A stretch of DNA of 64,000 nucleotides from Acrocarpospora macrocephala. GTDB taxonomy: Bacteria; Actinomycetota; Actinomycetes; Streptosporangiales; Streptosporangiaceae. A program made the translations under genes and the position numbers. Under the pieces are notes generated by a model. It had not been told where the DNA came from and searched no databases. It saw only the letters and a program-made list of their open reading frames with translations. Of this stretch, positions 24,217 to 59,617 are shown piece by piece (position 1 is the first letter of the stretch; every line of letters begins with the position of its first letter). The DNA lies in contig NZ_BLAE01000007.1 in the NCBI RefSeq assembly GCF_009687865.1, positions 62,001 through 126,000 on the forward strand, read 5' to 3'.

Positions 24217-24219
24217 TAC

Positions 24220-25212: not shown

Positions 25213-25270
25213 CCGCCCATTCTCCCAGCCCTCCGCCCGTGGCGGCATTCGGGCTTAGCGTCCCGAAATT

Positions 25271-27083: not shown

Positions 27084-27085
27084 CT

Positions 27086-27246: not shown

Positions 27247-27317
27247 GGGAGCATTTCTGCTCCCTCCGGAGCACACCCCGAGCGGGACCCTTCAGCGGTC
27301 CGCCGGCCACCGCCGAA

Positions 27318-36945: not shown

Positions 36946-36969
36946 CTGGTGTAGGACACCGCGTCCGAC

Positions 36970-39900
36970 TCAGTCGAAGGTGGTCCGGATCCAGTCACGT
37001 ATCAGGGCCGCTGTGTACGGGGCATGATCCTCCAACATGGTGAAATGGTTGCCGCGGGTGATGACGGTGGTGTCGTCGAACGGCCAGACGGGTTCCCAGT
37101 CTGCCGGCCAGCCCTCCAGCGGTTCCCCCGCACGCACGAACAGCACGGGGATCGGCAGATCAGTGAGCGTCGGATCGAGTGTCTGGTAATGCGGCGTGGC
37201 GGTGATCCAGCTGTCGTCGCCGGACATCACGAATGTCGGGTCCTCCAACCGGAGCTCCAATTGCTCACCCAGACCGGGTAGCAGTGGGCCGATCCGGCTG
37301 AACTCGCTGGAGTCGTAGCTGTCCAGCACGACGACACCGGCCGGCGGGGTGCCCTGGTCGCACAGGTACCGGGCGAGCATGTGAGCGATCAGACCACCGG
37401 ACGACAGGCCGGTGAGCACGAACGGCCGCTCTCGCAGTTCCGCACGCAGACCGGCTGCGTGCATCTCCAGCAGCACATCCTTGGTCTTCGGGAGCGCCTC
37501 GCCATCGCGGAAACCCGGCTGCCGCAGCGCCCAGACGTCTCGTTCACCCTGGAACGGCTTTGCCAGGCGGGAATACTGCACCGGATCCGACGTGCCAACG
37601 ACCGCGGTGACACAAACCAGTGCCAGTCCTTGCGGGCCCCTTGCCAGCCGGACCGGTCGGGGGATCTCAGGCAGCTCGTCCAGCGAGGTGAAGAACGTTC
37701 GTGATTTCTCCCATCCGGCCGCCCTGGCCCGGAGGAACCGCTCTCTGACGGTCTCGCTGTCCTCTTGCGTGGCCGGTTCGTCCTCGCCCTGGGCCAGCAC
37801 CTTCATCAGATGCCCGACCAGCAACAGCGGCGTTGGATGGTCGAAGGTGACGGTCGGCCGCAGCCGCAGGTCGAGTGCCTCGGTGAGGTGGTTGCGGATG
37901 CTGACCGCAGCCAGTGAGTCCACACCCATCTCCAGGAACTTGGCCTGCGGCCTGAGCTCGTCCGTGCCGTGGTGCCCGAGGGTCACCGCGACCTTCTCCA
38001 GCACCAGATCGAGCAGGGCCCGTTCCCGCTCCGGTTCCCCGAGCAGGTCGAGCAGCTGACGCTGATCCCCGTTCGAAGCCTCCGGCTGGCTCACCAGCTC
38101 CCGCAGCAGGGGCCTGGCCTGGCCACGCAGGTCGAGCCGGGCGGGCACCAGCACCGGATCGGCCAGCTCGACCGCGGTGTCGAACAGCGCCAATGCCTCC
38201 TTCGTGGACAGCGAGTCGGTCGCCGTGTCCAGATGGCGGGTCATGTCACTGCGTTCGGCCCACAGGCCCCAGGCAAGCGACACCGCGGGAAGTCCTCGCG
38301 CGCGCCGATGGTGGGCCAGTGCGTCGAGCACAGCGTTGGCGGCGGCGTAGTTCGACTGGCCCGCGCTGCCCACGGTGGCGGCAGCCGAGGAGAACAGCAC
38401 GAACGACTTCAGCGGCAGATCCTGAGTCAGCTCGTGCAGGACGAGCGCCGCCTCCGCCTTCGGCCGCAGGACAGCGCCGAGGCGGTCCTCGGTCATGGTC
38501 ATCACCACGCCGTCGTCGAGCACCCCGGCCGCGTGGACGACGATCGTCGGCTGGTGTGCGTCGAGCAGCTCGGCCACCTCTGCCCGGTCCGCGACGTCGC
38601 AGGCGGCCACAGTGACGGTGGCGCCCAGCGCGGTGAGTTCGTCCCGCAACCCTGGCGCGTCACCCCGGCGACTGACCAGGACCAACTGTCGCACCCCGTG
38701 CACAGTGACCAGGTGACGGGCCAGCAGCCCGCCGAGTGTGCCGGTCCCACCGGTGATCAGCACGGTGTCCTCAGCCCCGGCGAACTTCGCCGGCCCCTGT
38801 GGGAAGGCCCGCACCAGGCGGCGTGCCAGCAGCTGCCCGCCCCGCACGGCGACTTCCGGTTCGTTCGAGGCCAGGGCAGCGCTGATCGTCAGTGGGGTGA
38901 TCTCGTCGGCGTCCAGCAGGACGAACCGGCCGGGTTCCTCGGTCTGCGCCGACCGAATCAGGCCGATGACGGCCGCGCCGGCCAGGTCGCTGACGTCGTC
39001 GCCGGTCCTGGCCGCCACCGCGCCCGAGGTGAGGAACACCAGCCTGGACGCGGCGAACTCCGGACGCGTGCTCCATCGCTGGGCCAGTCTCAGCGCGCGG
39101 CCCGCGGACTCCCGCACCGAGCCGCTGGAGCCGGGGACAAGCACCGCGCCCGGCGGTGGCAGACCCGCGGAGACCGCCTTCTCCAGTTCCGCCAGATCCG
39201 GAAAAACGGGGAAGTGGTCGGTCTCGAGACCCACGGCCGCGACTGTCTCCGAGGCGACACTGCTCGCCGCGCCCACCTCGACCCACTTGTTCCGGAACAG
39301 CGCGTCCCGCGGCGCATCGCTTCGTACGGCAGCTGATCGCAGCACCAGCGAGTCCACCGACAACACCGGCATGCCCGCGCCATCGGTCACCGTCAGCCGC
39401 ACCCCGTCATCGACCGACCCGCTCAGCCGCACTCGCAGCGTCGCCGGTTCAGCTGTGTGCGCGGTCACACCGGTCCACACGAACGGGAGCACCGGTCCTT
39501 CGCCCGGTGCTGCCTCGCCGCTGAGTCCGAGAGCGTGCAGAGCGGAATCCAGAAGTGCCGGGTGGACCACGAAGCCGCGTGCGTCCACCGGGCACGCCAC
39601 CTCGGCGAAGACCGCGCCGCCGCGCCGCCACACTGTCCGCAAACCTTGGAATGCGGGGCCATATCGCAACCCGTGCCCAACCAGTGCGGCGTAAAGGCCG
39701 GTGTGCGGGACCACCTCCGCGCCGGCGGGTGGCCACTCCTCGAGCATCTCGGGCTCGGCGTGCGCCGGACTGAGCACGCCCTCGCCGTGACACACCCAGC
39801 GCGCACCGTCCACTTTCGCATGGAGGGTCAGCCCACGGCGCCCGGTATTGTCCGGTGCACCGACACGCAGCTGGACCGTCGCCGCACCGTCGTCCGGTAG

Positions 39901-42795
39901 AACCAGTGGCCGTTCCAGGGTGAGTTCCTCCACCGTGGCGCAGCCTGCCGCGGCGCCCGCGCGCAATGCGAACTCCAGCCAGGCGGTTCCGGGCAGGATG
40001 ACCTCATCCAGCACCCGGTGATCAGCCAACCACGGAGCCGACGCCACCGACAGGCGCCCGGTCAGCACCAGCTCGTCGCTGTCCGCCAGCTCCACCGGCG
40101 TATCCAGGACAGGATGACCAACGCTTTCGGACTTACGCGGGGTCAGCCAGAACCGCTTGCGTTCGAACGGATAAGTCGGCAGCTCGGTAAATTCGGGCGC
40201 TTCCGGGCCTGCCCAGGCAGTCCATTGCGGACACAGACCGCGGACGTACAGCTCGGCGAGCGAGGCGAGAAGCGCTCTGCGGCCGTTTTCCCCTCGGCGC
40301 AGCGATCCCACGACCACGGCCTTGTCATCGACGGCCGCCCGCATCGCCGGGACCAGCACGGGATGCGGGCCTACCTCCACGAAGAACGAGTGTTCCGGCA
40401 CCGCGAGCCCGGCGACTGCCTCGTCGAACCTCACCGGCATGCGCAGGTTCCGGTACCAGTACCCGGCATCCAGCTCGGTCCCGGCGAGCACGGCACCGGT
40501 TACCGAGGAGTGGAATGGGAGGTCCGTGGCCTTCGGCGACACCGGTGCCAACTCGGCGAGGACGCGGTCGCGGATGAGCTCCACCTGAGGCGAGTGGGAC
40601 GCGTAGTCCACCGCCAGCTTCCGCACCCGCACACCGGACTCGGCCAAGCCCGCCAGCAAGGCATCGAGCGCGTCGGTGGCGCCGGCGACCACCGCCGACC
40701 CCGGTCCATTGACCGTCGCGATCGACAGCCGCTCGCACAGTCGGTCCCGCAGTTCGTCCGCAGGCATCTCCACCGAAGCCATGCCGCCACGGCCGGACAG
40801 TGCCGTCAGCACCTTCGCGCGCCGGGCGACCACCAACGCGGCGTGCTCGAGGGACAGCGCGCCGGCGACGTAGGCGGCGGCGATCTCCCCCTGGCTGTGC
40901 CCCACCACAGCATCCGGCTCGATGCCGCAAGACCGCCAGAGGCCAGCGAGGGAGACCATGACCGCGAACAGCGCCGGCTGCACCACGTCCACTCGCTCCA
41001 GCGAGGGTGCGCCCGGCTGCTGCCGCAGCACCGCGAGCAGGTCCCAGTCGACATGTGGCGCCAGCGCTTCGGCGCAGCGGTGGATGTCCTCTCGGAACGT
41101 CGGCGACGCGTCCAGCAGGTCTGCGGCCATTCCCGCCCACTGACCACCCTGACCGGGGAAGACGAACACCACCTTGCCCATCAGGTCCGCAGTGCCCGTT
41201 ATCAGGCCCGGTACGGCGTCACCCCGGCTCAACGCGGTCAGCCCGGGCAGGGGATCCGGGTCGAGCACCACGGCACGACGCTCGAACGTACTGCGGGAGG
41301 TGACCAGCGCCTGCGCGATACCCGAGGGATCCCTACCGTCCACATGTGATAGCAGCTGCCTCGCCTTGGTGCGCAGCGCGGAATCGGTCCGAGCCGAGAG
41401 CACCCACGGCAGTGGCCGCGCTGGGCCGACGGCCGGCGCTTCGGCGGGCGGCGCCTCTTCGAGGATCACGTGGGCATTGGTGCCACTGATACCGAACGCG
41501 GACACCCCGGCGCGCCGAGGACGGCCCGCGCTCGACTGCCAGGGGCGGCTTTCTGTGAGCAGTTCCACCGCGCCCGCCCCCCAGTCCACATGCGACGACG
41601 CGCTGTCCACGTGCAGCGTCTTCGGAAGGGTCTGGTGGCGCAGCGCGAGAACCATCTTCATCACTCCGCAGATGCCGGCAGCGGCCTGCGTGTGCCCGAT
41701 GTTCGACTTCACTGACCCGAGTACCAGCGGGGTTTCCCGGTCACGGCCGTAGGCTGCCTGCACCGCGGCCGCCTCGACCGGGTCGCCGAGCCGGGTTCCC
41801 GTGCCGTGCGCCTCGACGGCGTCCACATCCTGGCTGCGCAGCCCCGCGTCGGCCAACGCGTCGCGGATGACGTGCTGCTGTGCGAGCCCGTTGGGTGCGG
41901 TCAGCCCGTTGGACGCCCCGTCGGAGTTGATCGCGGTGCCCCGCACCACGGCGAGCACCGGGTGGCCATGGGTGAGGGCATCGGTCAGCCGCTCGACGAC
42001 CACGACCCCGGCTCCCTCGCCCCATCCCATACCGTCCGCGGCCTCCGCGAACGCTTTGCACCGGCCGTCCGCGGCCAGCGCGCCCTGGCGCTGGAAGACG
42101 GTGAACACGCTGGGCGTGGCCATCACCAACACGCCCCCGGCCAGCGCGAGATCGCATTCCCTCGCGCGCAGCGACCGGACTGCTAGATGCAATGCCACCA
42201 GCGAGGACGAGCACGCGGTGTCAATCGAGACCGACGGGCCCGTCAAGCCGAGCAGGTAGGCGACTCGCCCGGACAGCACGCCCGCGGAGGTGGCGATCGC
42301 CAGGTGGTCACCGTCCTCGTGGTGGTTGCTGGGCTCGCCGAACAGACTGCGGTAGTCCTGGTCGCTGGTCCCGGTGAACACCCCCGTCCGCGAGCCGCGC
42401 AGGGACATCGGGTCGATTCCGGCCCGTTCCACCGCCTCCCACGAAATCTCCAGCATCAGTCGCTGTTGCGGGTCCATCCACAGGGCCTCACGGGGACTGA
42501 TTCCGAAGAAGCCCGCGTCGAACCAGGCCACGTCGGAAATGAACGCCCCCGCGCCGGTGAACTCCTCTGCCCAGCCACGGTCGGTAGGAAACGGCGTGAC
42601 CGCGTCCCGGCCGGCGTCGATCAGCCGCCACAGTCCGTCCGGGTCGTTCGCCCCACCGGGCAACCGGCAGCCCATACCCACGATGGCGATCGGCTCGTGT
42701 GCGCTCGCCTCGACCGCACGCAGGCGTTCCCGTGTGTCCCGCAGCGTGGTGGTGAGGCGCTGCAGGGTGTCGAGTAACTTGCGGTCGTCAGTCAT
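36970..42795 (-). CDS. Type I PKS, terminating module KS-AT-DH-KR-ACP-TE
   Basis: 1941 residues from ATG 42795, overlapping the upstream PKS stop by 8 bases. Domains: docking helix 1-30; KS 33-455 (Cys in DTACSSS near 195, EAHGTGT, NIGHT); AT about 545-840 with GHSQGE and YASHS near 730, the methylmalonyl-CoA signature; DH about 895-1150 (His in [16 protein letters not shown], Asp in [10 protein letters not shown]); KR about 1340-1515 (GGTGTLG, LDD motif, so B-type); ACP Ser near 1627 (GVDSL); TE about 1700-1935 ([16 protein letters not shown]). Predicted to add an alpha-methyl, alpha,beta-unsaturated unit and release the chain as acid or lactone (inference). Confidence 0.92.
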
Positions 42796-45700
42796 CGAGA
42801 CGGTCCCTTGCTGCCAAGTCGAGTTCTTGTTCGGCGCGGCTCAGCAGGGTGTCGAGATCCGCCGTCTCGAGCTCCTCCTGCACTGGGCGTTCAGGTTGCG
42901 CAGCGGCCGGGGCCGGAGCGAGTTCGGCGTCGAGGTAGCCGGCCAGCGCGGTGGGCGTGGGATGGTCGAACAACGCGCTCGCGGGCACCCGCAGTCCGGT
43001 CACCGCACTCAGCTGGTTGCGCAGCTCCACCACGCCCAGGGAGCTGAGCCCCTGCTCATGGAAGGGTTTCCCAGGCAGGATCGCCTCGACCGAGTCGTGC
43101 CCGAGCGCCTGGGCGGCGTGGTGGCACACCAGATTGCGCAGCGCACGGACACGCTCGGCCTGCGATACTCCGGCCAGCCGCCGGACAAACGAGGAGACCT
43201 CCGCGGACGGCGCAGCGGCCTTGCTCTGCCGCGCTTCGGACAGGTCCACGAGCAAGGGGCTGTGCCGGGTGGTCGCGAACACCGAAATGAACCGGGCCCA
43301 ATCGACATCCGCGACCACCAGTCCGGACTCGTCCTGTGCGAAGGCCAGGTCCAGCGCGGCGATCGCCAGGTCCGGGTCGAGCACCGTCATGCCGTTGCGG
43401 CGCAGTCGCGCGGCCACGATCTGCGCCTCCGCCCCGTCCACCGCCATGCCACCGGCCCCCCACGGTCCCCAGGCCACCGACGTGGCCGCGAGCCCGTCGG
43501 CGCGACGTTGTTCTGCCAGCGCGTCGAGGTAGGTATTGGCTGCCGCATAATTGGCCTGGCCGGCGTTGCCGACCGCGCCGGTGGCGGAGGAGAACAGCAC
43601 GAACGCCTTCAGCTCTCCGCCGGCGAGCTCGTGGAGGTTCTTCGCGCCTGCGACCTTGGCCCGCAAGACTCGCGCGAGCCGTTGCGGGTCCAGCGCGTCG
43701 ATCACGCCGTCGTCGAGCACCCCGGCCGCGTGCACGACCGCGGTCAGCGGGCGGTCCTCGGGGATCCCGGCGAGCAGGGCTGCCACCGCTTCCCGGTCGG
43801 CCACGTCGCAGGCGGCGACGTCGACCTCGGCGCCGAGCGCGGTCAACTCGGCGACCAGCTCGGGATCACTCGCATGCCTGCCTGTCAGGAGCAGTCGTTC
43901 GATGCCCTTAGCGGCCAGCCACCTGGCAAGCTGCCTGCCCAGCGCGCCGAACGCGCCGGTGATGAGCGTGGTACCGCGCGATGGCCAGTCGCGTCGGGGT
44001 CCAGTTCCGACCGGCGCGTGCAGCAGGCGCCGGACGAACATCCCGGAGGCGCGCACGGCGACCTGATCCTCCGCGGAGGAGAGCACACCGGCCAATCGTT
44101 CGGCCGCCGGTGAATCCACCGTGAGTGGTAGATCGACCAACCCGCCCCACCGATTTGGGTGCTCCAGCGCCGCGACCCGGCCGAATCCCCACACCATGGC
44201 CTGCACCGGGCTGCTGAGCCGGTCACCGTGGCCCGTGGACACCGCTCCCTGTGTCGCGCACCACAACGGCACTTCGAGTTCGGCGTCCCCCATGGCCTGG
44301 ATCAGCGCGGTGGTCAGCGCGAGCCCGGCGGGTACCTCGGCCGTTCCCGGATGCCCCCGCTCATCCAGGGCCAGCAGGGACAGCACCCCGTCGATCGGTT
44401 CGCCGTCACTTACGGACGACGCAAGGCGCTCGGCGATCTCCGCGCGGCCCGCACCGATACCGATGGGCAGCGTCTGGGCGCCGAGCTTGTCGCCGAGTGG
44501 TTCTGGCACGGGTAGGTCCTCGGAGTGCACGATCAGCCAGTTCCGCAGGCAGGCGGCCTGGTCCGCCCCGGGTTGCCAGGCGATCCGGTACCGCAGCCGG
44601 TCCATCGCGGCTTCCCGGTCATGGCTGCGTCGCCACCGCGCCATCGCGGGCAGCAGTTCGCTGAACTTCCGGTCGGTGCTCGTGCCCAACAGATCGGTCA
44701 GGCGCTGAAGGTCGTCGCGCTCAACGGCCTCCCAGAAGGCCGCGTGGGTCTGCTGGGAGTGGCTCTCGACCGCGTCGGGCATCAGCCAGAACCGCTTGCG
44801 CTGGAAGGCATACGTCGGCAGGTCCACTCGTCGCGCCCCGCTGCCGGCATACCACGCCGGCCAGTCCGGCCCGTGGCCACGGACATGCAGCGCCGCGACG
44901 GCGCCGAGCACGTCGTCGCGGCGCAGGACGGGGATCACCGCCGCGTCGGCGGTTTCGGTGAGGCAGTCGGCGGCCATCACGGTGAGCGTCGTTTCCGGTC
45001 CCAGTTCCAGGAACGTGTTGACGCCCTCGTCTTGCAACGTCCGCATCCCGTCGAGGAACCTGACCGTGCCACGTATGTGGCGGACCCAGTACTCGGGCGA
45101 ACACAGCTCGTCGGTGGTGGCCAGCCGCCCGGTCAGATCGGACACGATGGGGATCTCGGGTGGGTGGTAGGTCAGGCTTTCCGCGACCGCGCGGAACTCG
45201 TCGAGCATGGGATCCATCAGGGAGGAATGGAACGCGTGGCTGACCTGCAGGCGCCTGGTCTTGCGTCCCTGGGCTCGCAACCGCTCCGCCAGCGCGACGA
45301 CCGCCTCCTCGGTCCCGGAGATCACCACCGACCTGGGGCCGTTCACCGCTGCCACCGACACATCCGGGGGCAACTGCGCGACCTCGTCCTCCGAAGTCGC
45401 CACCGCGTACATCGCGCCGCCCTCGGGCAACGCCTGCATGAGCGAGCCCCGCGCCGCGACCAGCGTGCACGCGTCCCGCAGGGACAGCACTCCGGCCAGG
45501 TGGGCGGCGGCCAGCTCACCGATGGAATGCCCCAGCAGCAGATCCGGCCGGATACCCCAGCTCTCGAACAGCCGAAACAGCGCCACTTCGAGGGCGAACA
45601 GGCCGGTCTGGGCGAATTCCGTCCGGTCGAGGTGTTGCTGATCCGTACCGAACACCGTCTCCTTCACCGGCAGGCCCAGCCCGGCGCACACCTCGTCGAA

Positions 45701-48700
45701 TGCGGCGGCGAAGACCGGATACGCGGCATACAGCTCGCGTCCCATGCCCACTCGCTGGCTCCCCTGACCGGTGAGCAGGAAGGCCAAGCCGCCCTCGGCT
45801 ACCACGCCGACAATGAGGTCGGGGTCGGGTTTGCCCGTTGCCAGCGCGGTCAGCGAGCGCCGCAGCCGATCCCGGTCACCGCCAGTGAGCACGGCCCGAT
45901 GCGCCAGCGCCGACCGCGTCGTGGCCAGCGAGAAGCCGACGTCGCGCTCGCTGAGATCGGGGTGGGCGTCCCAATGCGCGGCCAGCCGGCCCGCCTGGGC
46001 GCGCAGAGCCGCTCCCGAACCGCCCGAAACTGTCCACATTGGCCAGACGGACGCGACGGGCTCCGCCATGGTCTCCGCCTGCGCGGGTGGCTGCTGAAGG
46101 ATCATGTGGGCATTGGTCCCGCCGATCCCGAACGACGACACGCACGCCCGCCGGGGCGGGCCGTGATCAGGCCACGGCATCTGCTCGGTGACCAACCTCA
46201 GTCCCGCGCGCCAATCCACGTGGGAGCTGGGCTGGTCGATGTTCAGGGTCGCCGGGACCACGCCGTGCCGCATTGCCAGCACCATCTTGATCAGCCCGGC
46301 CGCGCCTGCCGCGGCCAGAGTGTGGCCCAGATTGGACTTCAAGGAGCCCACCAGCAGCGGCCGGTCCGGCGGCCGATGCGCCCCGTAGGCCGCCAGCAGA
46401 GCGCCGGCCTCGATCGGGTCACCGAGCTTCGTGCCTGTGCCGTGCGCCTCCGCGACGTCCACGTCCGACGGCCGCAGCCGGGCGTCAGCGAGTGCGGAGA
46501 CCAGCAGCCGGTGCTGGGCGACGCCGTTGGGCGCGGTGAGCCCGTTGCTCGCTCCGTCCGAGTTGACCGCCGACCCCGTGATCAAAGCGAGAACCGGATG
46601 GCCGTTGCGGCGCGCGTCGGAGTACCGCTCCAGCACGAACATCCCACCGCCCTCGGCCCAGACGGTGCCGTCAGCGCCCTCGGCGAACGGTTTCACCCGT
46701 GCGTCCGGCGCGAGCCCGCCCTGGCGGCTGAACTCCACGAACACCATCGGTGAGGACAGCACGTTCACCGCGCCCGCCAGCGCCAGCGAGCACTCGCCAC
46801 GGCGCAGCGCGGCGGCGGCGAGGTGCAGCCCGACCAGTGACGACGAGCATGCCGTGTCGATGGACAGATTGGGCCCCTGCAGCCCGAAGGTGAACGAGAT
46901 CCGGCCGGAGGCCACGCTGGCCGCGGTCCCGATCGCCAAATGCGGACGCGCGGTCCAACCGGCGTACCCGGGGCCGATGCCATAGTCGTTGTGGCTCAAC
47001 CCGGCGTAGACCCCGGTGTCACTGCCGCGCAGCGCGGCGGGGTCGATGCCGGCCCGTTCGAACGCCTCCCAGGACAATTCAAGCAGCAGCCGCTGCTGAG
47101 GGTCCATCTCGAGAGCCTCGTGCCCACCGATGCCGAAGAACGCGGGATCGAACCCGGCGGCGTCGTGGAGGAACCCGCCCTTGCGCACATAGGTCGTGCC
47201 CGGCCGCTGTCGTTCCGGGTCGTACAGGGCAGCCAAGTCCCAGCCGCGGTCCTCCGGCATCGACGAGATGACGTCACGACCCGAGACGACCAGCTGCCAG
47301 AGGTCCTCCGGCGACTGCACTCCGCCGGGGAACCGGCAGCTCATCCCGACGATGGCGATCGGCTCGTCGGAACCGCTCCGGCGCGGGACCACGGCAACCG
47401 GCTGGGACGCGTGGCTGTCCAGGTGCGCGGCCAACTGGTTCGGGGTGGGGTGGTCGAACAGCGCGGCCGTGGCGATCTTCAGCCCAGTCCGCCTGCGCAA
47501 CCGGTTCACCAGTTCCACGGCGGCCACGGAGTCCAGTCCGAGCTCGACGAACGACCGGCCCGGCCGGTAGCCGCCCTTGAACATCGCCTCGACCTCGGTC
47601 CGGATCAACCTGGGCAGATCCGTCGGCCGGGAGGTGGCACGGGCGGGCTGGATCGGTTCGGTCGGCAGGTGCGTGCGCCGGCCGCCCCAGCCGCGGAAGA
47701 CCTCGGGCCAGTCCACCGGGACACCGTGGGTGTGCAACTCGCCCAGCGTGCCGAGCACGGCGTGCGGATCGGACTCGCCGCGCAGCGCGGCGGTGACGAG
47801 CACGTTCCCGGCAGCGGACTCGGGCAGTGTCTCCTCGACCAGCGCGGCGAGCACACCACTCGCGCTCATGTCCACGTAGGTGTCGACGCCCGCCGCGTCG
47901 AGGCTGGTCACGCAGTTGAGGAAGTGCCCGGTCCCGCGTAGCTGCGCGCCCCAGTACTCAGGACGGCAGACCACGTCGGGGTCCGAGCCGAACCCGGTGT
48001 GCACCGGGACGAGCGGGATACGCGGCGGCCGGGGCGAAAGACCACGGGCGAATTGCTCGAAGTCACCGGCCATCGCGGCCATGTGTGGGGAGTGGAAAGC
48101 CCGGTCGACTGGCAGCTGCTTCACCTTGCGGCCACGATCCGACCACAGTCCGGCGATCCGCAGCACGGTTTCCCGGTCCCCGGACACGACCACGGAGTTC
48201 GGGGCGTTCACCGCGGAGATCCCGGCCAGGTGTTCGAGCCCGGACAACGATTCCAGCGCCTCCGCCTCGGTGACGCGCATCGCGATCATAATGCCGCCGA
48301 CGGGTGTCTTCTCCCGGAACAACCTGATCCGCTCGGCCAGGAAGGCGCACACATCAGGCAGCGAGTACACCCCGGCGGCCGTCGCCGCAGCCAGTTCCCC
48401 AACTGAATGCCCCGCCACGAAGTCCGGGCGCACGCCACAGTGCTCGAACTGGCGGAACAGCGCCAGCTGGACGGCGAACAGCGCATCCTCGGTGTACAGC
48501 GCCTCGTCGGCAGGTGCGACCTCAGTGCGGCCATCGCCGAGCAGCAGACCGCGTACCGACCAGGTGGACACCGCGTCCAGGTGGTGGCACACCTCGTCGA
48601 GCGCGTCGGCGAACACGTCGAACATCGAGTACAGCTCACGTCCCATGCCCGCCCGCTGCCCGCCCTCACCGGGAAAGAGGAAAGCCACCTTGCGCCCAGT

Positions 48701-49678
48701 GCCGGCCTTCGCCGTGCCACCCCTGCCAGCCGCGACTTCACCGAGTCCGTCGGCGAGCTCCGCGCGGTCACTGGCGAGGACTACGGCCCGATGCGGTAGG
48801 TGCGGCCGTGCGACCGCCAGCGTGTGTGCGGTGTCCAGCAGGTCGGGGCTGCTGGGCTCGGTCAGGTGGACGCGCAGGCTTTCCGCCTTGCCGCGCAAGG
48901 TCTCTTCGCTGTCGGCCGACAGCAACAACGGCAGCGTCCGGACCCCGGGCCTGGTCGACGACGACGGGCGCGCGGGTGGTTCTGACAGCACCAATGCGCA
49001 GACCGTTCCGGCGTCGTCCGCGGAGCAGAGCACCGCGGTCAAGCGGCGGTTCAGGTCGATCGGAGCGTCAGCGACGGGAACCTGCCTGCGGTTGAGCAGC
49101 ACTGGCATCTCCAGGAGAGCCGTCACCGCGTCGTCCTCGCCGCCCGGCTCGTCGCCGTCGAACACTCTGTCCAGCGCAGCCTTGCCCGAGTGGTACCCGC
49201 GCCGCCACAGGAACTGGATGCTGTCGCGGTGCACCTCGGCGCGAGCACAGGCCTGCTGTGCGACCCGCCCCCGGCCCAGCGCGCTACCGTCGATCACGCA
49301 GTGGATCGGGTCACGGTCGGCCACCGCGGCAGGCATCGGCTTCAGCAGCAGGAATCCGCTGCTTCCACCGGGTGAAACCACCCCGGCGAGCGCGAGTTCG
49401 GACTCGCCGGCGTGAATGCTCTGGCAGGCCAGGTGCACCACCCCGGCGGGCTGGATGTCCAAGGTCACGGCGGGCCCGAGAGCACCCAGTCGGGTGGCGA
49501 TCAGGTCGGCGTGCGCCATGGCGAACACACCGGCCGCCGTATTCCGAAGCCGTTCCGGAGCAACTCCAGCATTTTCCAGCGCCCGAAATACTGCTTCGTC
49601 CGGTGGAATCGTCGAGGGGCTGTGTGACAAGCCGATAACCGCGACTGGCGCCGGGCGAGCAGTACTGCCGGTCTGCAT
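42788..49678 (-). CDS. Type I PKS, loading part (vestigial KS-AT-ACP) plus module KS-AT-KR-ACP
   Basis: About 2296 residues; ATG 49678 chosen because aggtgg precedes it (longer in-frame starts lack an RBS). Residues about 10-180 are a shrunken [17 protein letters not shown] aligns to a normal KS, but the Cys motif reads DIQPAG and HGTGT is absent. AT about 330-625 (GHSVGE, RAFHS: malonyl-like); ACP Ser near 715; KS about 780-1200 (DTACSSS, HGTGT, NLGHT); AT about 1310-1590 (GHSIGE, HAFHS: malonyl-CoA); KR about 1900-2080 (LDD, B-type); ACP near 2211 with GLSSL instead of G-x-DSL. It has no DH, so it should leave a beta-hydroxyl. It transcribes divergently from the acyl-tailoring operon. Confidence 0.9.
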
Positions 49679-50147
49679 AGAACCACCTGTCCTGATCATT
49701 ATCGACGGAAGTCGTTTCTGAACGCAGGCTGTCGAGCATGGTCCTGGGACGCCACCGAATATCGGCCCTGCCCAGGTAGCGGCACGTAGCGTTCTAGAGT
49801 GTAGCCAGCCAGACAAGCGCGTCCAGATTCCAATATGAGCAGGTTCGCGGGTCTGGTGAATTCCTTAGTATTTCCATCGCCAGCTTGTCGCCATACACAT
49901 CCGTGTGATGATGCTCGGGAAGGTACCCACACGGATCCGGCATCATGGAATTTGTTTTCCGGTCCGCGATATCCACGAAGCGAACCGGGCTATTCGCGCT
50001 GTCGAAGGCCCGTCGAACAGCACGCGGTGTGAGGTGTTCCTGCCTTCTGTCGTCCAGATCGCGCGCCTCGACTCACCGCCGACTGACCGCTCGACCGATC
50101 CGGTAACCAGCAAGATCCGGACTTCGCTGACCACGAAGGGAATCAGC
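49679..50147. promoter_or_regulatory. Divergent promoter region of the biosynthetic cluster with inverted repeats
   Basis: The 469 bp between the PKS start and the acyl-ligase start must hold promoters for both operons. ATCCGTGTG (49899-49907) and its complement CACACGGAT (49928-49936) form a spaced dyad, and ATGATGC (49908-49914) pairs with GCATCAT (49941-49947), an operator-like arrangement. No cluster regulator gene exists, so control presumably comes from elsewhere. Confidence 0.45.
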
Positions 50148-51860
50148 GTGAAGCCACCTGTGCGACCCGCCCTGCTGGACGGAGAGACTCTGGGGGAGAG
50201 CCTGGCCCGGTTGGCGAAGGCGTCACCGGATTCCTGCGCAAGATTCCCCACCGCGGGCGACGAGATCACCGCGGCGGAACTCGACTCCGCTTCCGCGGCG
50301 GGCGCACACGAGTTCCTGCGCGCCGGGGTGCGACCCGGTGAGATCGTGGGCGTACTGGTGTCCACCGCCGCCAGGTTCCTCACCACGATCTTCGGGCTCT
50401 GGCGGGCCGGGGCGGCGGTCAGCGTGCTGCCGGTCCAGGCCGGTTTCGGTGGTGTGCAGGGCACCGCGCGCCGTCTCTCGCGCATCATGGCCGTCGCGGG
50501 CATGCGCCACCTCGTACTGGACCCCGACTACGACGACCTCGGCCGCGAACTCACCACGGTGAGCACTGGCCTGGCCCTGCTGTCTCCGCCTTCGCCCAGC
50601 GGCACCGGCAGCGTGCTCACCCTGCCCGCCGTCGATCCCGGCGCACTTGCCATCGTCCAGTTCACCTCCGGCAGCACGAGCATGCCCAAGGGCGTGATGC
50701 TGCCTCATCGGACCACCGTGGCCGGTCTGCAAGCCTGCGTGGTGTCGGGCGCCTTTAGTCCCGACGACGTGTTCGTCCAATGGGTGCCGACCTTCCACGA
50801 TATGGGCTTGATCGGCCTGCAGTCGCACTTGCTCAACGGTGCCGACGTCCACGTCTTCCCCCCGATCACCTTTCTGCGGCGGCCGGGCGCGGTGCTCGAG
50901 TACTTGGCCGCACGCGGCGGCACCATGATGACCGGCCCCAACTTTTCCTACGACTACATACTCGACAACGTCCCTGCGGAGCGACTGGCCACCCTCGACC
51001 TGTCCAGCTGGCGGCTGGCGTTCAACGGCGCCGAACCGGTCAGCGCGGCCACCGTCCGGCGCTTCACCGAGGCGCTGGCACCCAGCGGCGTCGACCCATC
51101 GGTGATGTACCCGGTGTACGGCATGGCCGAGGCCACCCTGTCGATCAGTTACCCCAACCCCGGCGACACCGCGACGATCCGCGCGGTGGACCGCAACGAA
51201 CTGGCCAGGACCGGTGTCGTGCGCACTGTCGAGGAGACCGCGCCCGCGGCCAAACCGGTCGTCGCGGTGGGCCGCGCCGTGCACGGCATCGACCTGCGGA
51301 TCGTCGGCGAGGACGGGGTGGTGGCCGCCGACAGCACGCTCGGGGAGATCCAGATCGCCGGGGAACCGGTGACCACCGGGTACTTCCGCAACCCCGAAGC
51401 GACAGCGGCGGTGTTCGACAACGGCTGGCTGCGCACCGGCGACCTCGGCTTCCTGCTCGACGGCGAACTGTACATCACCGGGCGGCGCAAAGAGATGGTC
51501 GTGGTGCACGGGCAGAACTTCTTCCCCGACGACGTCGAGAACGTCGCGCGCACCGTGCCAGGCGTCTACCGCCGCCGCTGCGTCGCGTTCCCCGACACCG
51601 ACGCCGAGGGTGGCGAGCGAATCGGCGTCATCGTGGAGACCAGGGGGGATCCCGCCTTGGTACGCGAGGAAGTCCGCAGGCGGGTGGCCACCGAGTTGGA
51701 CCTCGCCCAGGTGGAGGTCTACGCGGTCAAGCCCCGCTGGATCCCCCGCACCACCAGCGGCAAGTGGCAACGCGTACTCGCCGCCCAGCGCGTCACCGCC
51801 GGTGACGATGAAGGGGTGTTCCCCGCCACCGGAAGTCGAGACCAAGGAGAACTGGTGTGA
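50148..51860 (+). CDS. Fatty-acyl-AMP ligase (FAAL)
   Basis: 570 residues from GTG 50148 (aaggga 6 bases upstream). Adenylate-forming motifs: QFTSGSTSMPKGV near residue 171, the FAAL-typical PTFHDMGLIG near 213, YPVYGMAEAT near 321, GWLRTGDLG near 425, GRRKEMVVVHGQNFFPDDVE near 446 and the Lys of TTSGKWQRV near 537. FAALs make acyl-AMP and pass the acyl group to an ACP rather than to CoA; the free ACP three genes downstream is the expected acceptor. First gene of a six-gene coupled operon. Confidence 0.9.
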   Translation: MKPPVRPALLDGETLGESLARLAKASPDSCARFPTAGDEITAAELDSASAAGAHEFLRAGVRPGEIVGVLVSTAARFLTTIFGLWRAGAAVSVLPVQAGFGGVQGTARRLSRIMAVAGMRHLVLDPDYDDLGRELTTVSTGLALLSPPSPSGTGSVLTLPAVDPGALAIVQFTSGSTSMPKGVMLPHRTTVAGLQACVVSGAFSPDDVFVQWVPTFHDMGLIGLQSHLLNGADVHVFPPITFLRRPGAVLEYLAARGGTMMTGPNFSYDYILDNVPAERLATLDLSSWRLAFNGAEPVSAATVRRFTEALAPSGVDPSVMYPVYGMAEATLSISYPNPGDTATIRAVDRNELARTGVVRTVEETAPAAKPVVAVGRAVHGIDLRIVGEDGVVAADSTLGEIQIAGEPVTTGYFRNPEATAAVFDNGWLRTGDLGFLLDGELYITGRRKEMVVVHGQNFFPDDVENVARTVPGVYRRRCVAFPDTDAEGGERIGVIVETRGDPALVREEVRRRVATELDLAQVEVYAVKPRWIPRTTSGKWQRVLAAQRVTAGDDEGVFPATGSRDQGELV

Positions 51861-52723
51861 ACAGCAAAACCCGGTCGCCTGCCGGGGTGCCCTTGCTCGA
51901 GGACGAACGGATGCACAGTGCCCGGGTGTTTGCGGCCTACCAGCACGCAACCTGGGAAATGCACCACATCCCGTGGGACGAGTTCCGAGCTGACTTGGTG
52001 CTGCCCGAACATATCGTGTTCGCCAAGGGCGCCATCGTGGGCGAGTCCAACGTCATCGCAGCCACCCACGGACTGCTCAACGAGTTCGCCATGGACTACG
52101 ACTTCTCCCAGTTCGCGTGCATCTGGGGTTACCAGGAGATCCAGCACCACCTCGCCTTCCAGACCTGGCTACAGCTGGCAGGGCACAACATCGACCACAG
52201 CACGATCGCCTCGATGCGTGCGGCGTACCCGCCGGGGGTGACCAGGGCGGCCACGCTGGCGACCAACGTCATCTGCGAGGTGCTGGCCACGCACGCCTAC
52301 AAGTGCGTCGCCCGCAGCATGCGGGAGCCGGTGCTCGCCGCGATCCTGCGGAAAGCCAGCGGCGACGAGGCGCGGCACGCGCGGGAATTCGTCCACTACA
52401 CCGCGGTGCAACTGGCCGAACGGCCGGAGGAATGCGCGTCAGTAGTGGAGACCCTGTACGTCTACATGGGCACCACGCGCGATCTGTACCGCCACCCGGT
52501 CAGCCGGTTCAAGGGAAACCTGCCCGAGCTGGCGAACCACGAGACCATCGACGAGATGTTCGCCTACTTCGCCGAGGTTGACGAAGGCGGCGCGGAGTGG
52601 GCGAAGTGCTGCGAACAGCTGTTCAAGTACTTCTCGCAGATCACCGGCTACAAGTTGACCAAGATGTCCGACGTGCGCCGGGCGATAGCCGACGAGTCGT
52701 CGAAGGACGTGGTCGTCGTATGA
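51857..52723 (+). CDS. Ferritin-like diiron oxygenase/desaturase
   Basis: 288 residues from GTG 51857 (GTGA overlap). A helical protein with metal-ligand motifs: GAIVGESNVIA, GYQEIQHHLAF (E-x-x-H) and SGDEARHAREF (E-x-x-H), plus CEVLATHAYK. This arrangement fits the acyl-ACP desaturase/ferritin-like superfamily. The likely substrate is the acyl chain on the operon ACP; it could desaturate, hydroxylate or act in N-oxygenation (AurF-like), and the chemistry cannot be decided from sequence. It differs clearly from the second desaturase at 54385, so they probably act at different steps. Confidence 0.7.
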   Translation: MNSKTRSPAGVPLLEDERMHSARVFAAYQHATWEMHHIPWDEFRADLVLPEHIVFAKGAIVGESNVIAATHGLLNEFAMDYDFSQFACIWGYQEIQHHLAFQTWLQLAGHNIDHSTIASMRAAYPPGVTRAATLATNVICEVLATHAYKCVARSMREPVLAAILRKASGDEARHAREFVHYTAVQLAERPEECASVVETLYVYMGTTRDLYRHPVSRFKGNLPELANHETIDEMFAYFAEVDEGGAEWAKCCEQLFKYFSQITGYKLTKMSDVRRAIADESSKDVVVV

Positions 52724-53247
52724 CCGCCCAGCACACCTTCGGCGAGGAGATCGAGTTCCCCTGGATTTCGGAGCCCTCGTTCAACTGTTTCGGTTGCTCC
52801 CCACACAATCCGGTCGGGCTCAAGCTGCGCATGCAACGGCTGTCGAACGGCGACTACGCCGCCGAGACGACGTTCTCCGAGTGCTACGCCTCCTACCCGG
52901 GAATCGTGCACGGCGGCATCGTGAACGTCCTGGTGGACGAGGTGATGGGCGACACCCTCACGCTGATCCACGGCATGCTTGCGTTCTCCGTGACCCTACG
53001 CAGCAGGATGCTGGCCCCTCTCATGGTGGGAGAGCGGTACCTGACCGTCGCGCGGGTAAGCGGCAGGGGCAACGGGGTGCTGCACACCGAGGCCACGATC
53101 ACCGGGCCCGGCGACGAGCTACACGTCATGGCAACCGGCACCTACCAGCCGATCCGATCCGAGCAGGCCAGAGAACTGATGAAGCTCGACGACGCCGCCT
53201 TCAGCCGCGTCCGGCACTACTTCGACCATGGAGCTGGAGAGACATGA
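52720..53247 (+). CDS. Hotdog-fold thioesterase (PaaI-like)
   Basis: 175 residues from ATG 52720 (ATGA overlap). CFGCSPHNPVGLKL, then YASYPGIVHGGIVNVLVDEVMG, is the classic PaaI-type hotdog signature, with the catalytic HGG and the following acidic residue on the central helix. Expected to hydrolyse acyl-ACP or acyl-CoA thioesters, as release or proofreading enzyme for the tailored fatty acyl group. Translationally coupled to the ACP. Confidence 0.85.
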   Translation: MTAQHTFGEEIEFPWISEPSFNCFGCSPHNPVGLKLRMQRLSNGDYAAETTFSECYASYPGIVHGGIVNVLVDEVMGDTLTLIHGMLAFSVTLRSRMLAPLMVGERYLTVARVSGRGNGVLHTEATITGPGDELHVMATGTYQPIRSEQARELMKLDDAAFSRVRHYFDHGAGET

Positions 53248-53522
53248 CCACCGAATCCGCCACCACCCGTGCAGAGATCGCCTCAGTCACGGCCGAATGC
53301 ATCGCTGCTGAGCTGAAGATCTCCGCCGCCGAGCTCAACGGCGCCGACGTGCTCAAGGAACTGCCCGGTGCAGACTCACTGAAGCTGCTACGTGTGGTGT
53401 CCAAACTGGAGCGCAGGTGGGACGTCGAGTTCGACGATGAGGCTATTTTCGGCGCGCGGACCATCGACGAGCTGGTCACCTTGGTCGAGAAGCACGTCAG
53501 CGGGGATCTGGCGGGGTCATGA
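53244..53522 (+). CDS. Free-standing acyl carrier protein
   Basis: 92 residues from ATG 53244 (ATGA overlap). Acidic, four-helix size; the phosphopantetheine site is GADSLKLLRV with the Ser near residue 47, followed by ERRWDVEFDDEAIF. It is separate from the PKS ACPs and coupled to thioesterase and methyltransferase genes, so it should carry the FAAL-derived acyl chain during desaturation and methylation. Confidence 0.9.
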   Translation: MTTESATTRAEIASVTAECIAAELKISAAELNGADVLKELPGADSLKLLRVVSKLERRWDVEFDDEAIFGARTIDELVTLVEKHVSGDLAGS

Positions 53523-54388
53523 CCACACTGACCCCGCAAGAGGCGTATCAGGCAACCAACAAGCACTACGAGCTGCCCGCCGAACTGTTCGGCATCTACC
53601 TCGACCGGCGGCTGAAGTACAGCTCCGGGTTGTACACCAATGGGCACTCTGATCTTGACCAGGCGCAGACGAACAAGCTGCACTTCGTCGCGCGGCAACT
53701 GGGCCTCACCGGCGGTGAGCGGCTGCTCGACGTCGGCTGCGGCTGGGGCAGCCTGATCCTGTTCATGGCGCAGGAGTACGGCTGCCACGCCACCGGCGTC
53801 ACCCCGTCACGCCCACAGGCCGAATACATCCGGGCGCAAGCGGAGAAGGCGGGCGTGGCCGAGCTGATCGCGCTGGAGCTCGGTTCGTTCACCGACGTCG
53901 AGGTGGCCGGGCCGTTCGACGCGGTCACCATGCTCGGCTCAATCGTGCACATGCCCGACCGGACTGCGGTGCTGCGCAAGGTGTACGGGCTGTTACGGGG
54001 CGGCGGGTCGCTGTACCTGTCGGAAAGCTGCTTCCGGGACCACGCCGCCTATGAGGAGTTTTCGCAGCGGCCGGGTACCAAGCACGTCACCGAGGGCATT
54101 TTCGGATTCGCCGACATGGTGCCGCTGTCGGTGCTGGTAGAGGCCGTGGAATCGGCCAGGTTCAGCCTCACAGGACTCGCCGACCTCACCGCGCACTACC
54201 ACCGCACCATCGAGGAGTGGGAACGGCGGGTTGGGGCCGCGCGTGACCACGTCGAACTGGTGGCGCCAGGTATGAGCGAGCCACTCATCCGATATCTCCG
54301 CACGGCCAATGCCGGCTGGGGTTACACCACCAAGCACTACGCGTTGAGCGCACTGAAATCCCGGATGGGTCCAACGGAGGCACCATGA
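53519..54388 (+). CDS. Cyclopropane-fatty-acyl-synthase-like SAM methyltransferase
   Basis: 289 residues from ATG 53519 (ATGA overlap). The N-terminus YQATNKHYELPAELFGIYLD and LKYSSGLY match the CFA synthase/mycolic-acid cyclopropane synthase family; the SAM site is LLDVGCGWGSL near residues 69-79. Family chemistry: transfer of a methylene from SAM to a cis double bond, giving cyclopropane, methyl-branched or exomethylene products. Together with two desaturase-like enzymes and an ACP it suggests that a double bond made here is then methylated. It lacks the extra N-terminal domain of E. coli Cfa, like the mycobacterial enzymes. Confidence 0.87.
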   Translation: MTTLTPQEAYQATNKHYELPAELFGIYLDRRLKYSSGLYTNGHSDLDQAQTNKLHFVARQLGLTGGERLLDVGCGWGSLILFMAQEYGCHATGVTPSRPQAEYIRAQAEKAGVAELIALELGSFTDVEVAGPFDAVTMLGSIVHMPDRTAVLRKVYGLLRGGGSLYLSESCFRDHAAYEEFSQRPGTKHVTEGIFGFADMVPLSVLVEAVESARFSLTGLADLTAHYHRTIEEWERRVGAARDHVELVAPGMSEPLIRYLRTANAGWGYTTKHYALSALKSRMGPTEAP

Positions 54389-55254
54389 CCGAGACCCTGC
54401 CCGAGTCCGATTCCCAGCGGTTGCGAAAGTTCGTCGACCCTGGGGAAATCCGGGAGCTGACGCGGAAGGCGGTGAGCCGCGCCGGCACGCGGCAGTGGTC
54501 GATCGACGAGCTGTCCTGGGCGTCGCTGCGGCCTGAGGAACTCACCGACACCGACCGGTCGGTGGTCCGGTTCATCACCTTCATCGAGGACCATATCCCT
54601 GGGTATCTCACCTATTTCCTGGGCGCCTTCCCCGTCTCCGGCGAGGATTTGGCGATCGAGGAGTTCTGCTTCAACCGGGAGTACTTCCGCTTCCTGATCT
54701 CCTGGGCTAACGAGGAGGAACGACACGCCTCGGTGCTGACCAGGTACCAGATCGAGGCCGGCATCAGCGACCCCGACACACTGATGCGGGAGTTGGCCGA
54801 GGAGGGCCGGAAGAAGTTCGCACTGCCCTACGAGAACCCGCTGCAGGCGTTCACTTATACGCTGGTGCAGGAGAAGGCCACGCAGCTGTTCTACCAGCGG
54901 TTCAGGACGGTGGCCACGGAGCCGGTACTGCGTGATCTGCTGCATCGGCTGGCCAGGGACGAGGCGCGGCATTTCGCCTTCTACTCCGAACTCGTCGGCG
55001 CCTACGTCAAGCGGCACGGGCTCGCGGCGAGCGTACCGGATCTCAAGGACGTGCTGTCCACCTTTCGGATGCCGCTGGCGGACACGCTGAACGGGTACTG
55101 GCGGTGGTCACTGAAAATCGCGGACGCCACGTCCTACGACCATACCGAGGCATACGAGGCGCTGGTCCGGCTCGTCAACGATTTCGCCACGTCGCAAGGC
55201 AATGCGGCAATGGCCGACCTGGCCGAGTTCGTGCACCGGATCCGCGCGGTCTGA
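54385..55254 (+). CDS. Acyl-ACP desaturase (FA_desaturase_2, soluble diiron)
   Basis: 289 residues from ATG 54385 (ATGA overlap). The ligand helices read VRFITFIEDHIPGYLTYFLG, SWANEEERHASVLTRY, VQEKATQLFYQRF and LARDEARHFAFYSELV, the E / EExxH / E / DExxH set of stearoyl-ACP desaturase-like enzymes (DesA in mycobacteria). Introduces a cis double bond into an ACP-bound acyl chain; electrons must come from ferredoxin not encoded here. Last gene of the coupled run; a 31-bp gap leads to the P450. Confidence 0.88.
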   Translation: MTETLPESDSQRLRKFVDPGEIRELTRKAVSRAGTRQWSIDELSWASLRPEELTDTDRSVVRFITFIEDHIPGYLTYFLGAFPVSGEDLAIEEFCFNREYFRFLISWANEEERHASVLTRYQIEAGISDPDTLMRELAEEGRKKFALPYENPLQAFTYTLVQEKATQLFYQRFRTVATEPVLRDLLHRLARDEARHFAFYSELVGAYVKRHGLAASVPDLKDVLSTFRMPLADTLNGYWRWSLKIADATSYDHTEAYEALVRLVNDFATSQGNAAMADLAEFVHRIRAV

Positions 55255-55285
55255 CCGGCTCGTCCACTCGTACAACAGGATGGAA

Positions 55286-56482
55286 ATGTCTATTACTTTC
55301 GACCCGCGAGATCCATCGATACGTACGGACCCATATCCTGTCTATCGACGCCTCCGCGAGACTGATCCGATTCATCAATCACATTTCGGCTATTGGGTTC
55401 TTTCCCGCTACGCCGACGTCGACGCCGTACTGTGCGCACCAGGGGCGTCGAGTGAGTTCTATCGGAACACCACATGGGCCAACCGCCGCGGCGGCGCGGA
55501 CAGCCCGCTCCTGCAGAGTGTGCGAAATTGGATGCTCATGCTTGACGGGCCCGCACACAGGCGGATCCGCGGCGTGATCGGCAAGGTTTTCACCCGCGCC
55601 TCCGTAGCGCGACTGCGGCCACGTATAACCGCTGAAACCGACCGGCTTCTCGACGCCGTGGGCGAAGGTGAGACCGATCTGATCGACAGTCTCGCACTGC
55701 CCCTTCCGGTGACCGTGACCTGCGAGCTTCTGGGCTTGCCCTCGTACGATCGAGACCAGTGCCGCCGTTGGACGGAACAAATAAGTCGCGTGATCGACCC
55801 CTCGATAACGTTCGAGGACACGGCCGGCATGAACACGGCGGAAGTAGAATTTCGGGAATACGTCGCCGAGCAGCTCGACGAGCGCAGGTCAACACCACGA
55901 GAAGACATCCTGTCTCTGCTCGTGCACGCTGAGGTCGATGGCGTCCGGCTGACTGACTGCGAGATCATCGCCAATGTTCTGTTTCTGTTCGTCGCAGGTC
56001 ATGAGACAACTGTCAATCTGATCGGAAACGGTCTGCTGGCGCTGCTCCGGCATCCCGACCAGTTGCGAATGCTGCGCGAGAACCCGGAGATGATCACTGA
56101 TGCCATGGACGAGATCACTCGCTACGACGCCCCCGTGCAGATCGTCTCCAGGCTCCTGACCGACAACGTCGCCCTTGAGGACGTCACGCTTCCTGCGGGG
56201 GCCAAGGTGATGTTGCTCTTCGGGGCGGCCAGTCGTGATCCGGCACGCTACTGCGACCCGGACCGCCTCGACTTGACTCGTACCGGAACAAAAACGCTGG
56301 CTTTCAGCAGTGGGCCCCATTACTGCATCGGCGCCGCGCTGGGAAAGCTGGAGACCTCTGTGGTGCTGACGGAGCTACTACGACGCTACTCCAGGATTGA
56401 ACTCACCAGCGAGAACCTGGTCTGGCGACCTAACGTCAGCTTCCGTGGCCTACAGAGACTGCCACTCAGGCTGATGCGCTGA
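55286..56482 (+). CDS. Cytochrome P450
   Basis: 398 residues from ATG 55286 (agga upstream; ATG 55280 also in frame). Motifs: I-helix FVAGHETT near residue 237, ExxR in DEITRYD near 278, and heme loop FSSGPHYCIGAALGK with Cys near 347. A class I bacterial P450 needing external ferredoxin and reductase. Expected late hydroxylation or epoxidation of the cluster product. Third-position G/C is a little lower than in the genes before it, so it may have joined the cluster separately. Confidence 0.92.
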   Translation: MSITFDPRDPSIRTDPYPVYRRLRETDPIHQSHFGYWVLSRYADVDAVLCAPGASSEFYRNTTWANRRGGADSPLLQSVRNWMLMLDGPAHRRIRGVIGKVFTRASVARLRPRITAETDRLLDAVGEGETDLIDSLALPLPVTVTCELLGLPSYDRDQCRRWTEQISRVIDPSITFEDTAGMNTAEVEFREYVAEQLDERRSTPREDILSLLVHAEVDGVRLTDCEIIANVLFLFVAGHETTVNLIGNGLLALLRHPDQLRMLRENPEMITDAMDEITRYDAPVQIVSRLLTDNVALEDVTLPAGAKVMLLFGAASRDPARYCDPDRLDLTRTGTKTLAFSSGPHYCIGAALGKLETSVVLTELLRRYSRIELTSENLVWRPNVSFRGLQRLPLRLMR

Positions 56483-56640
56483 CCTGGACAGGCGAAGCCA
56501 TCCCTCCAGCGGGACCCGTTATTCGGCGGGTTGGCGACCAACTGATGATCCTGGGGCCGGGACGCGACCAACGCGGGCAGAGGTCCCCTGCACGGGGGAG
56601 GACTGCGAACGCTCGATCTGTTCGGCGGCCCCTGGCTGGA

Positions 56641-59605: not shown

Positions 59606-59617
59606 CAGTCCTCACCT

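Follow-up and report, generated by a model that had tools for sequence, protein, structure and literature searches.

What do two polyketide synthase (PKS) genes make together with a divergent set of acyl-tailoring genes, and do the two halves form one pathway? This question is raised by a block of nine genes in Acrocarpospora macrocephala, within a 64,000-nucleotide stretch, hereafter the window, that is part of contig NZ_BLAE01000007.1 (positions 62,001 to 126,000; genome of 12.1 Mb in 166 contigs). The block encodes PKS1 and PKS2 and, diverging from them, a fatty acyl-AMP ligase (FAAL), a ferritin-like diiron protein (DIIRON1), a hotdog-fold protein (HOTDOG), a free acyl carrier protein (ACP), a methyltransferase with the fold of cyclopropane fatty acid (CFA) synthases, a second diiron enzyme (DES) and a cytochrome P450 (Table 1). 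A preliminary description had read it as a hybrid cluster in which a desaturated and methylated or cyclopropanated fatty acyl unit is joined to, or starts, a short chain ending in an alpha-methyl enoate. The gene set that it named is real: all genes were found in the order given, each with Pfam matches, and the gene calls were right apart from three starts. As an interpretation it stood for the hybrid cluster, the FAAL, the diiron pair and the enoate and fell for the cyclopropane, and it had missed a recurrent cassette. The broader finding suggested by our sequence comparisons is a recurrent actinobacterial cassette for acyl-ACP tailoring with a PKS-coupled subclade.

The six genes from FAAL to DES recur together in many genomes. 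We scanned a genome collection of 84,980 species with two peptide patterns from a DIIRON1 alignment and found 83 loci, of which 80 were kept; the count is a lower bound, and totals of 81 below are these loci plus the window. DIIRON1 was the bait; what is observed independently is that the other five genes are there too. By tblastn, the FAAL, ACP and methyltransferase were present in 80 of 80 loci (the methyltransferase partially in L076), the hotdog protein in 79 and DES in 78, with both DES misses at contig ends. According to gene calls, 77 of 81 loci have FAAL-DIIRON1-hotdog-ACP-methyltransferase-DES in this order on one strand, which places the arrangement beyond chance. The four exceptions are L076 and L090, both cut by a contig end, L105, in which DIIRON1 has moved, and L067, in which no hotdog gene was called. 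Record titles name 11 genera in all: Nocardia, Amycolatopsis, Pseudonocardia, Actinokineospora, Streptomyces, Kutzneria, Thermocatellispora, Actinomycetospora, Winogradskya, Frankia and Acrocarpospora. One full cassette lies on a contig of a metagenome-assembled genome labelled Acidobacteriaceae (L068), which may reflect a binning error or transfer.

Within this range the cassette is patchy, since among 396 genomes sampled evenly from the phylum only the window's own genome matched DIIRON1 strongly; eight others matched weakly (9 of 396 in total; best E of the eight 1.4e-7), and no further cassette was seen in that sample. Six of 345 genomes sampled from the order gave a match, and three of them (G000, G004 and G322) have the cassette. 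The other three (G079, G080 and G083; L012-L017) carry distant DIIRON1 homologues as paired diiron genes, with no FAAL match in the two contexts read. DIIRON1 was found at E <1e-30 in 54 of 148 sampled genomes from the genus of Nocardia amamiensis, and three Acrocarpospora-genus genomes (G001-G003) gave no DIIRON1 match.

The loci divide into clade A, which comprises the window and L028-L035 (nine loci), and clade B, the other 72. In all six proteins, even the smallest distance between the clades is greater than the largest one within clade A; clade B is diverse, and its DIIRON1 proteins are 44-51% identical to that of the window. Distance matrices of the six proteins correlate with r of 0.81-0.96 over 78 shared loci, and in Mantel tests of clade B none of 200 shuffles reached the observed value for any of the 15 pairs. 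These correlations fit joint inheritance of the six proteins, to which shared species descent contributes.

All nine genes of the block persist in clade A, where PKS1 and PKS2 accompany the cassette in nine of nine loci and an orthologous P450 does so as well. We distinguished four arrangements. The PKS genes are divergent and the P450 follows DES in the window, in A. pleiomorpha and S. coffeae, and also in Kutzneria, where an additional P450 intervenes; the PKS genes are divergent and the P450 lies beyond PKS2 in Streptomyces sp. NBS 14/10 and S. milbemycinicus; the PKS genes are collinear, with the P450 last and convergent, in S. cellostaticus and strain NBRC 109706; and the P450 stands between PKS1 and FAAL in Winogradskya. 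Because the gene set survives this shuffling, the nine genes are probably a functional set. Linkage extends to the PKS1 loading region as a search query: among 295 genomes from the genus of Streptomyces sp. NBS 14/10, some match occurred in 188, and the region was full-length only in the cassette carrier NBS 14/10 itself (67% identity; next best 38% and 34%). Gene content, motifs, conservation and linkage are direct observations here.

Nearly the whole block is shared with A. pleiomorpha, whose DNA (L018 and L019) matches 36933-51150 at 96.8% and 51151-56483 at 98.8% identity by blastn. The shared DNA ends at the ends of PKS2 and P450, and beyond it, the 14.2 kb compared at one end and the 4.8 kb at the other gave no further matches except to a recombinase-like remnant. 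Because the shared DNA stops at these two gene ends and the flanks are otherwise unrelated, the block probably moved as one unit. Given the linkage in nine of nine loci across four arrangements and the shared block, which is relocated in A. pleiomorpha, PKS and cassette look like one unit, in line with the single hybrid cluster first proposed. The remnant repeats parts of the window at 27117-27247 (95%) and 27517-27595 (87%), and A. pleiomorpha has related DNA next to PKS2. A tRNA-Val with a nearby short open reading frame (ORF) that resembles a tyrosine recombinase by eye occupies 27012-27836. This pair, together with the remnant at the PKS2 end, suggests delivery by an integrative element. 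No empty insertion site was found in the stretches compared: matches of the left flank to G001-G003 extend no further than 36646, those of the right flank to A. pleiomorpha begin at 56884, and the places matched do not meet. Neither L018 nor L019 has a tRNA at the block edges, and a search for plasmid carriage gave four weak matches (26-27% identity), all with coverage below 80%.

Clade B loci, examined over flanks of up to 10 kb, keep different company. No PKS1 or PKS2 match was found in 68 of the 72; in the remaining four, all from Amycolatopsis (L040, L052, L056 and L066), a different protein with ketosynthase (KS) and acyltransferase (AT) domains was matched at 29-33%. This large KS-AT protein lies downstream of the cassette and is possibly another supplier of an acid, as may be a different large KS-AT protein farther from the cassette in Thermocatellispora (L021:2526-8918). 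P450-family genes lie near 66 of the 72 cassettes, FAD_binding_3 oxygenase-family genes near 51, a second 4HBT protein near 48, a second AMP-binding protein near 19 and a PF00487-type gene family near six. Seven of the 72 loci (for example L044, L054 and L106) have a 4'-phosphopantetheinyl transferase family gene upstream of FAAL, and this subgroup also has two small conserved proteins.

The predicted start of the tailoring line is the FAAL, whose AMP-binding domain was matched by Pfam at E 3e-53 and whose top PDB match is itself a FAAL (3pbk, E 7e-68). FAALs carry a specific insertion that is not present in acyl-CoA ligases. Compared with a single reference acyl-CoA ligase, E. coli FadD (first codons cut), the protein has a 20-residue insertion at residues 348-367 of its 566-residue form, counted over alignment columns that are occupied in more than 80% of the 81 members of the family. 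The FAAL identity given in the preliminary description is thus supported by PDB relatives and insertion alike. HOTDOG matches PF03061 (4HBT) at E 9e-5, and a role as thioesterase is favoured because at least 98.5% of 80 sequences keep its HGG (64-66) and D73-E74 residues. The ACP matches PF00550 (PP-binding) at E 3e-9, and at least 98.5% of 81 sequences retain its Ser45. NCBIfam (June 2026) gave no family above cut-off for the seven right-hand proteins, the result for FAAL covering the best 25 of 98 families.

Both oxidases of the cassette have the complete E, ExxH, E, ExxH ligand set of castor stearoyl-ACP desaturase and M. tuberculosis DesA2, as expected from the earlier assignment of two diiron enzymes. 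They resemble soluble acyl-ACP desaturases by sequence in the case of DES and by fold in the case of DIIRON1. DES matches PF03405 (FA_desaturase_2) at E 2e-16 and DesA2 in the PDB at E 9e-8, and at least 98.5% of 79 sequences share its ligands E68, E111xxH114, E163 and E193xxH196; six diiron ligands together with this family place it among the soluble acyl-ACP desaturases. The sole Pfam family matched by DIIRON1 was PF13668 (Ferritin_2), at E 1.6e-4 and 22.3 bits, under the cut-off of 24.7, and Pfam returned no FA_desaturase_2 match for it. Its ligands E63, E94xxH97, E141 and E171xxH174 are invariant in 61 of 61 aligned sequences, and the 19 best Foldseek matches of its structure model (mean confidence score pLDDT 88.5) are all acyl-ACP desaturases (best E 1.6e-5; 13-17% identity), so that fold and ligands are consistent with desaturases. 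Matching Ferritin_2 and FA_desaturase_2, the cassette oxidases are unlike the jamB type, whose members are membrane desaturases of PF00487, and do not group with these.

The methyltransferase departs from its closest relatives in its predicted active site. It belongs to the CMAS family (PF02353, E 3e-40), and its model (pLDDT 85.9) has as top Foldseek matches a CFA synthase (7qos, E 1.8e-20) and CmaA1 (template modelling score, TM, 0.82). In E. coli Cfa, we take C139, E239, H266, I268 and Y317 to be the bicarbonate and base residues. Y317 is the sole one kept: C139 is replaced by S or A, E239 by V or I, and H266 and I268 by S in 80 of 80 homologues. As controls we used a CFA-like paralogue from the window's own genome (L003), which keeps C139 and E239 and has Q at 266, and the second CMAS protein of eight clade B loci, in which E239 and Q266 occur in eight of eight and C139 in the six that cover it; the other own-genome paralogue (L002) gave no residues. 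Because H266 is replaced by Q in the controls too, the argument rests on C139 and E239, and their loss makes cyclopropanation, a step suggested in the preliminary description, unlikely. N-, O- or non-cyclising C-methylation remain for the enzyme. It has an SI-HMPD motif in common with MitM, presumably an aziridine methyltransferase.

The PKS half is a modular type I system, with KS, AT and ACP in each module and a terminal thioesterase (TE), judged from domains and active-site motifs. In the loading module of PKS1, the KS has IQPAG in place of the TACSS of active KS domains, a PAG form seen in six of the eight PKS1 proteins that have the region. The loading AT (GHSVGE/RAFHS plus a conserved Arg, by eye; RGFHS in Winogradskya) is present in nine of nine clade A members, with an ACP motif after it in eight. 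Module 1 follows with a malonyl-type AT, a ketoreductase (KR) and an ACP, and PKS2 forms module 2 with a methylmalonyl-type AT (GHSQGE/YASH), a dehydratase (DH), a KR, an ACP and the TE. Under the rules that we assume to link AT motifs to extender specificity, the PKS would most likely make a triketide with the alpha-methyl enoate end that had been proposed; an acetate-equivalent starter would give a 5-hydroxy-2-methylhex-2-enoyl unit. PKS2 is 96% identical in A. pleiomorpha, 76-80% over its full length in six genomes and 53% in Winogradskya. The AT, DH, KR, ACP and TE motif patterns were matched in six of seven other PKS2 proteins; in that of Winogradskya the GHSQGE, DH, KR and ACP patterns were matched and the YASH and TE patterns were not. 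The Winogradskya PKS has no room for a degenerate KS and, by motif count, has two more modules; chain length therefore varies while the cassette is retained. By eye, a coil at the PKS2 N-terminus has the appearance of a docking domain.

The explanation that we consider reasonably probable is a self-contained line for tailoring an ACP-bound acyl group, coupled in one subclade to a triketide PKS. Each reaction step and substrate, their order and the fate of the PKS acid are proposed here conditionally. FAAL would activate a carboxylic acid as its adenylate and load it onto the free ACP; DES and DIIRON1 would carry out two oxidations of the bound acid, probably desaturations; the methyltransferase would add a methyl group with no cyclopropane closure; HOTDOG would hydrolyse the tailored product off the ACP; and the P450 would oxidise the released product, a role that agrees with the P450-family genes beside most cassettes that lack this PKS. 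In the window's subclade the PKS would contribute its triketide, either as the FAAL substrate or as a product joined to the tailored one later. The sequential form, which we put forward tentatively, has the PKS TE free a short acid that FAAL then loads for oxidation and methylation, with the acid coming from elsewhere in other clades. It agrees with the PKS ending in a TE, with no joining gene having been seen, with a supplier that varies while the cassette stays (a modular PKS in clade A, a different KS-AT protein in 4 of 72 clade B loci) and with the Winogradskya cassette being kept beside a longer PKS. A C7 acid would, however, be an unusual substrate for soluble acyl-ACP desaturases, those among our PDB matches acting on long fatty chains. 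Several points weigh against the favoured explanation as a whole. The nine clade A loci are mutually related, so their complete linkage does not represent independent events, and correlated distances are likewise expected from shared species descent. Finding loci through DIIRON1 patterns biases the sample, which includes the locus without a called hotdog gene and the one with a displaced DIIRON1. No gene of the block obviously joins the two halves. DIIRON1, with a Pfam score under cut-off and a remote likeness to desaturases, could also hydroxylate, N-oxygenate or halogenate.

Were DIIRON1 an aliphatic halogenase or N-oxygenase, the product would bear halogen or a nitrogen group. VlmB, an azoxy synthase, is indeed among the fold matches of DIIRON1, at rank 30 (E 8e-3), but the 19 best are acyl-ACP desaturases and the nine proteins showed no match to an aminotransferase or a nonribosomal peptide synthetase (NRPS) condensation domain, and we regard this reading as unlikely. 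Decidedly unlikely, in our view, is the version of the preliminary description in which the PKS is primed by an unsaturated fatty acyl unit that has been cyclopropanated or methylated. A CMAS-family methyltransferase does adjoin two desaturase-fold enzymes, a FAAL and an ACP, and in jamaicamide, according to a review (PMC11837247), PKS and NRPS elongate a unit built by FAAL, ACP and desaturase. Yet the tailored acid is an unlikely starter because PKS1 has its own loading AT throughout the subclade, the substituted Cfa residues speak against the ring, and 72 further cassette loci do without this PKS in their flanks. Those 72 loci would suit two independent pathways that happen to be neighbours, which we nevertheless judge highly improbable given that PKS and cassette stay together in the whole subclade despite rearrangement, share the A. 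pleiomorpha block, and have the full-length PKS1 loading region confined to a cassette carrier among the 295 genomes. Taking the favoured explanation a step further, the cassette may represent an undescribed and widespread actinobacterial pathway type, in which paired diiron enzymes oxidise twice and a former cyclopropane synthase then methylates, different clades supplying different acids and a dedicated triketide PKS doing so here; this is a possibility that we still hold doubtful. Because the bicarbonate site is lost, methyl-cation chemistry would in that case lead, in place of a ring, to a branched alkene, alcohol or rearranged skeleton.

Known tailoring lines built on a FAAL and an ACP belong to clusters for alkynes and polyynes and to cyanobacterial halogenase clusters, and the present cassette is a different tool set. 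The jamABC alkyne cassette and the bacterial polyyne clusters (caryoynencin, protegencin) likewise have a FAAL, an ACP, several desaturases and a thioesterase, and a subset of 10 actinobacterial genomes has a P450 as well (PMC8406139); in contrast, the window's block has a CMAS-fold methyltransferase and no rubredoxin among its nine proteins. Clusters with CylC-type halogenases (columbamide, microginin and puwainaphycin type) also combine a FAAL, an ACP, a dimetal-carboxylate enzyme and a type I PKS (PMC8406957). By description they are set apart from the block by its two desaturase-fold enzymes, methyltransferase, hotdog thioesterase and PKS with its own loading AT. CFA and mycolic acid cyclopropane synthases have the fold and the Pfam family of the methyltransferase and differ from it in the four residues replaced in all 80 homologues.

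No described match to the cassette and PKS gene set was found in titles and abstracts of mainly open-access literature, a search that did not cover MIBiG; the earlier statement that no such cluster is described is consistent with this. In a 2025 FAAL review, no product in Table 2 was recognised as coming from the cassette gene set (PMC11837247). The A. punica products reported in the parts seen of two papers are azaphilone/phenanthrene and diterpenoid compounds (PMC9694197, PMC9854854), with no obvious link to the cluster. Loci from at least 11 named genera preserve the cassette as a block, with no product assigned in the literature searched. A methyltransferase with the cyclopropane-synthase fold minus its base would offer a direct test of the fate of a methylated carbocation, and the nine-locus PKS subclade, with its compact 19.5-kb block, is tractable for heterologous expression.

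Table 1. Genes and other features of the block in the window
Feature	Coordinates	Strand or length	Description
Recombinase-like gene remnant	36728-36933		Abuts the PKS2 end; named by eye from its translation
PKS2	36970-42795	-	KS-AT-DH-KR-ACP-TE (Pfam domains)
PKS1	42788-49678	-	Degenerate KS-AT-ACP loading module, then KS-AT-KR-ACP (Pfam)
Divergent intergenic DNA PKS1/FAAL	49679-50159	~480 bp	From revised starts
FAAL	50160-51860	+	566 aa
DIIRON1	51857-52723	+	Ferritin-like diiron protein with acyl-ACP desaturase fold
HOTDOG	52720-53247	+	4HBT-type thioesterase (favoured role), 175 aa
ACP	53244-53522	+	Free acyl carrier protein, 92 aa
CMAS-fold methyltransferase	53519-54388	+	Without the presumed cyclopropane-synthase bicarbonate residues
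DES	54385-55254	+	Soluble acyl-ACP desaturase-like diiron enzyme
P450	55280-56482	+	~400 aa; PF00067, E 2e-27

Gene boundaries were revised by comparison with relatives. The FAAL start was moved from 49905 to ~50160 because the relatives start there and, upstream of it, the reading frame shifts relative to A. pleiomorpha; among seven relatives with called starts, five begin with MRPALL, one begins a few residues later and Winogradskya elsewhere, and the N-terminus in A. pleiomorpha is VRPALLDGETLGESL. With the PKS1 start revised to ~49678, the divergent intergenic DNA follows from these two starts. The P450 start was set to ~55280 by orthologue comparison, and the gene therefore does not overlap DES. 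Instead of the six start-stop overlaps reported at first, we counted five 4-nt overlaps, at 51857, 52720, 53244, 53519 and 54385; on the minus strand, PKS1 and PKS2 overlap by 8 nt. A Pfam scan revealed neither a regulator nor a transporter among the nine proteins, as the preliminary description had it.

Elsewhere in the window, genes resembling those for aminodeoxychorismate lyase, a chorismate-binding enzyme and an aromatic ammonia-lyase (by eye) adjoin at 23386-26755, and a PIN-domain protein follows a small ORF at 33830-34536 as a VapBC-type toxin-antitoxin-like pair. Three large minus-strand ORFs (906, 544 and 579 aa) without a Pfam match occupy 56885-62988 and adjoin a Monooxy_af470-like protein (63045-63551); two stretches of the 906-aa ORF (95% and 91%) match a different locus of A. 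pleiomorpha.

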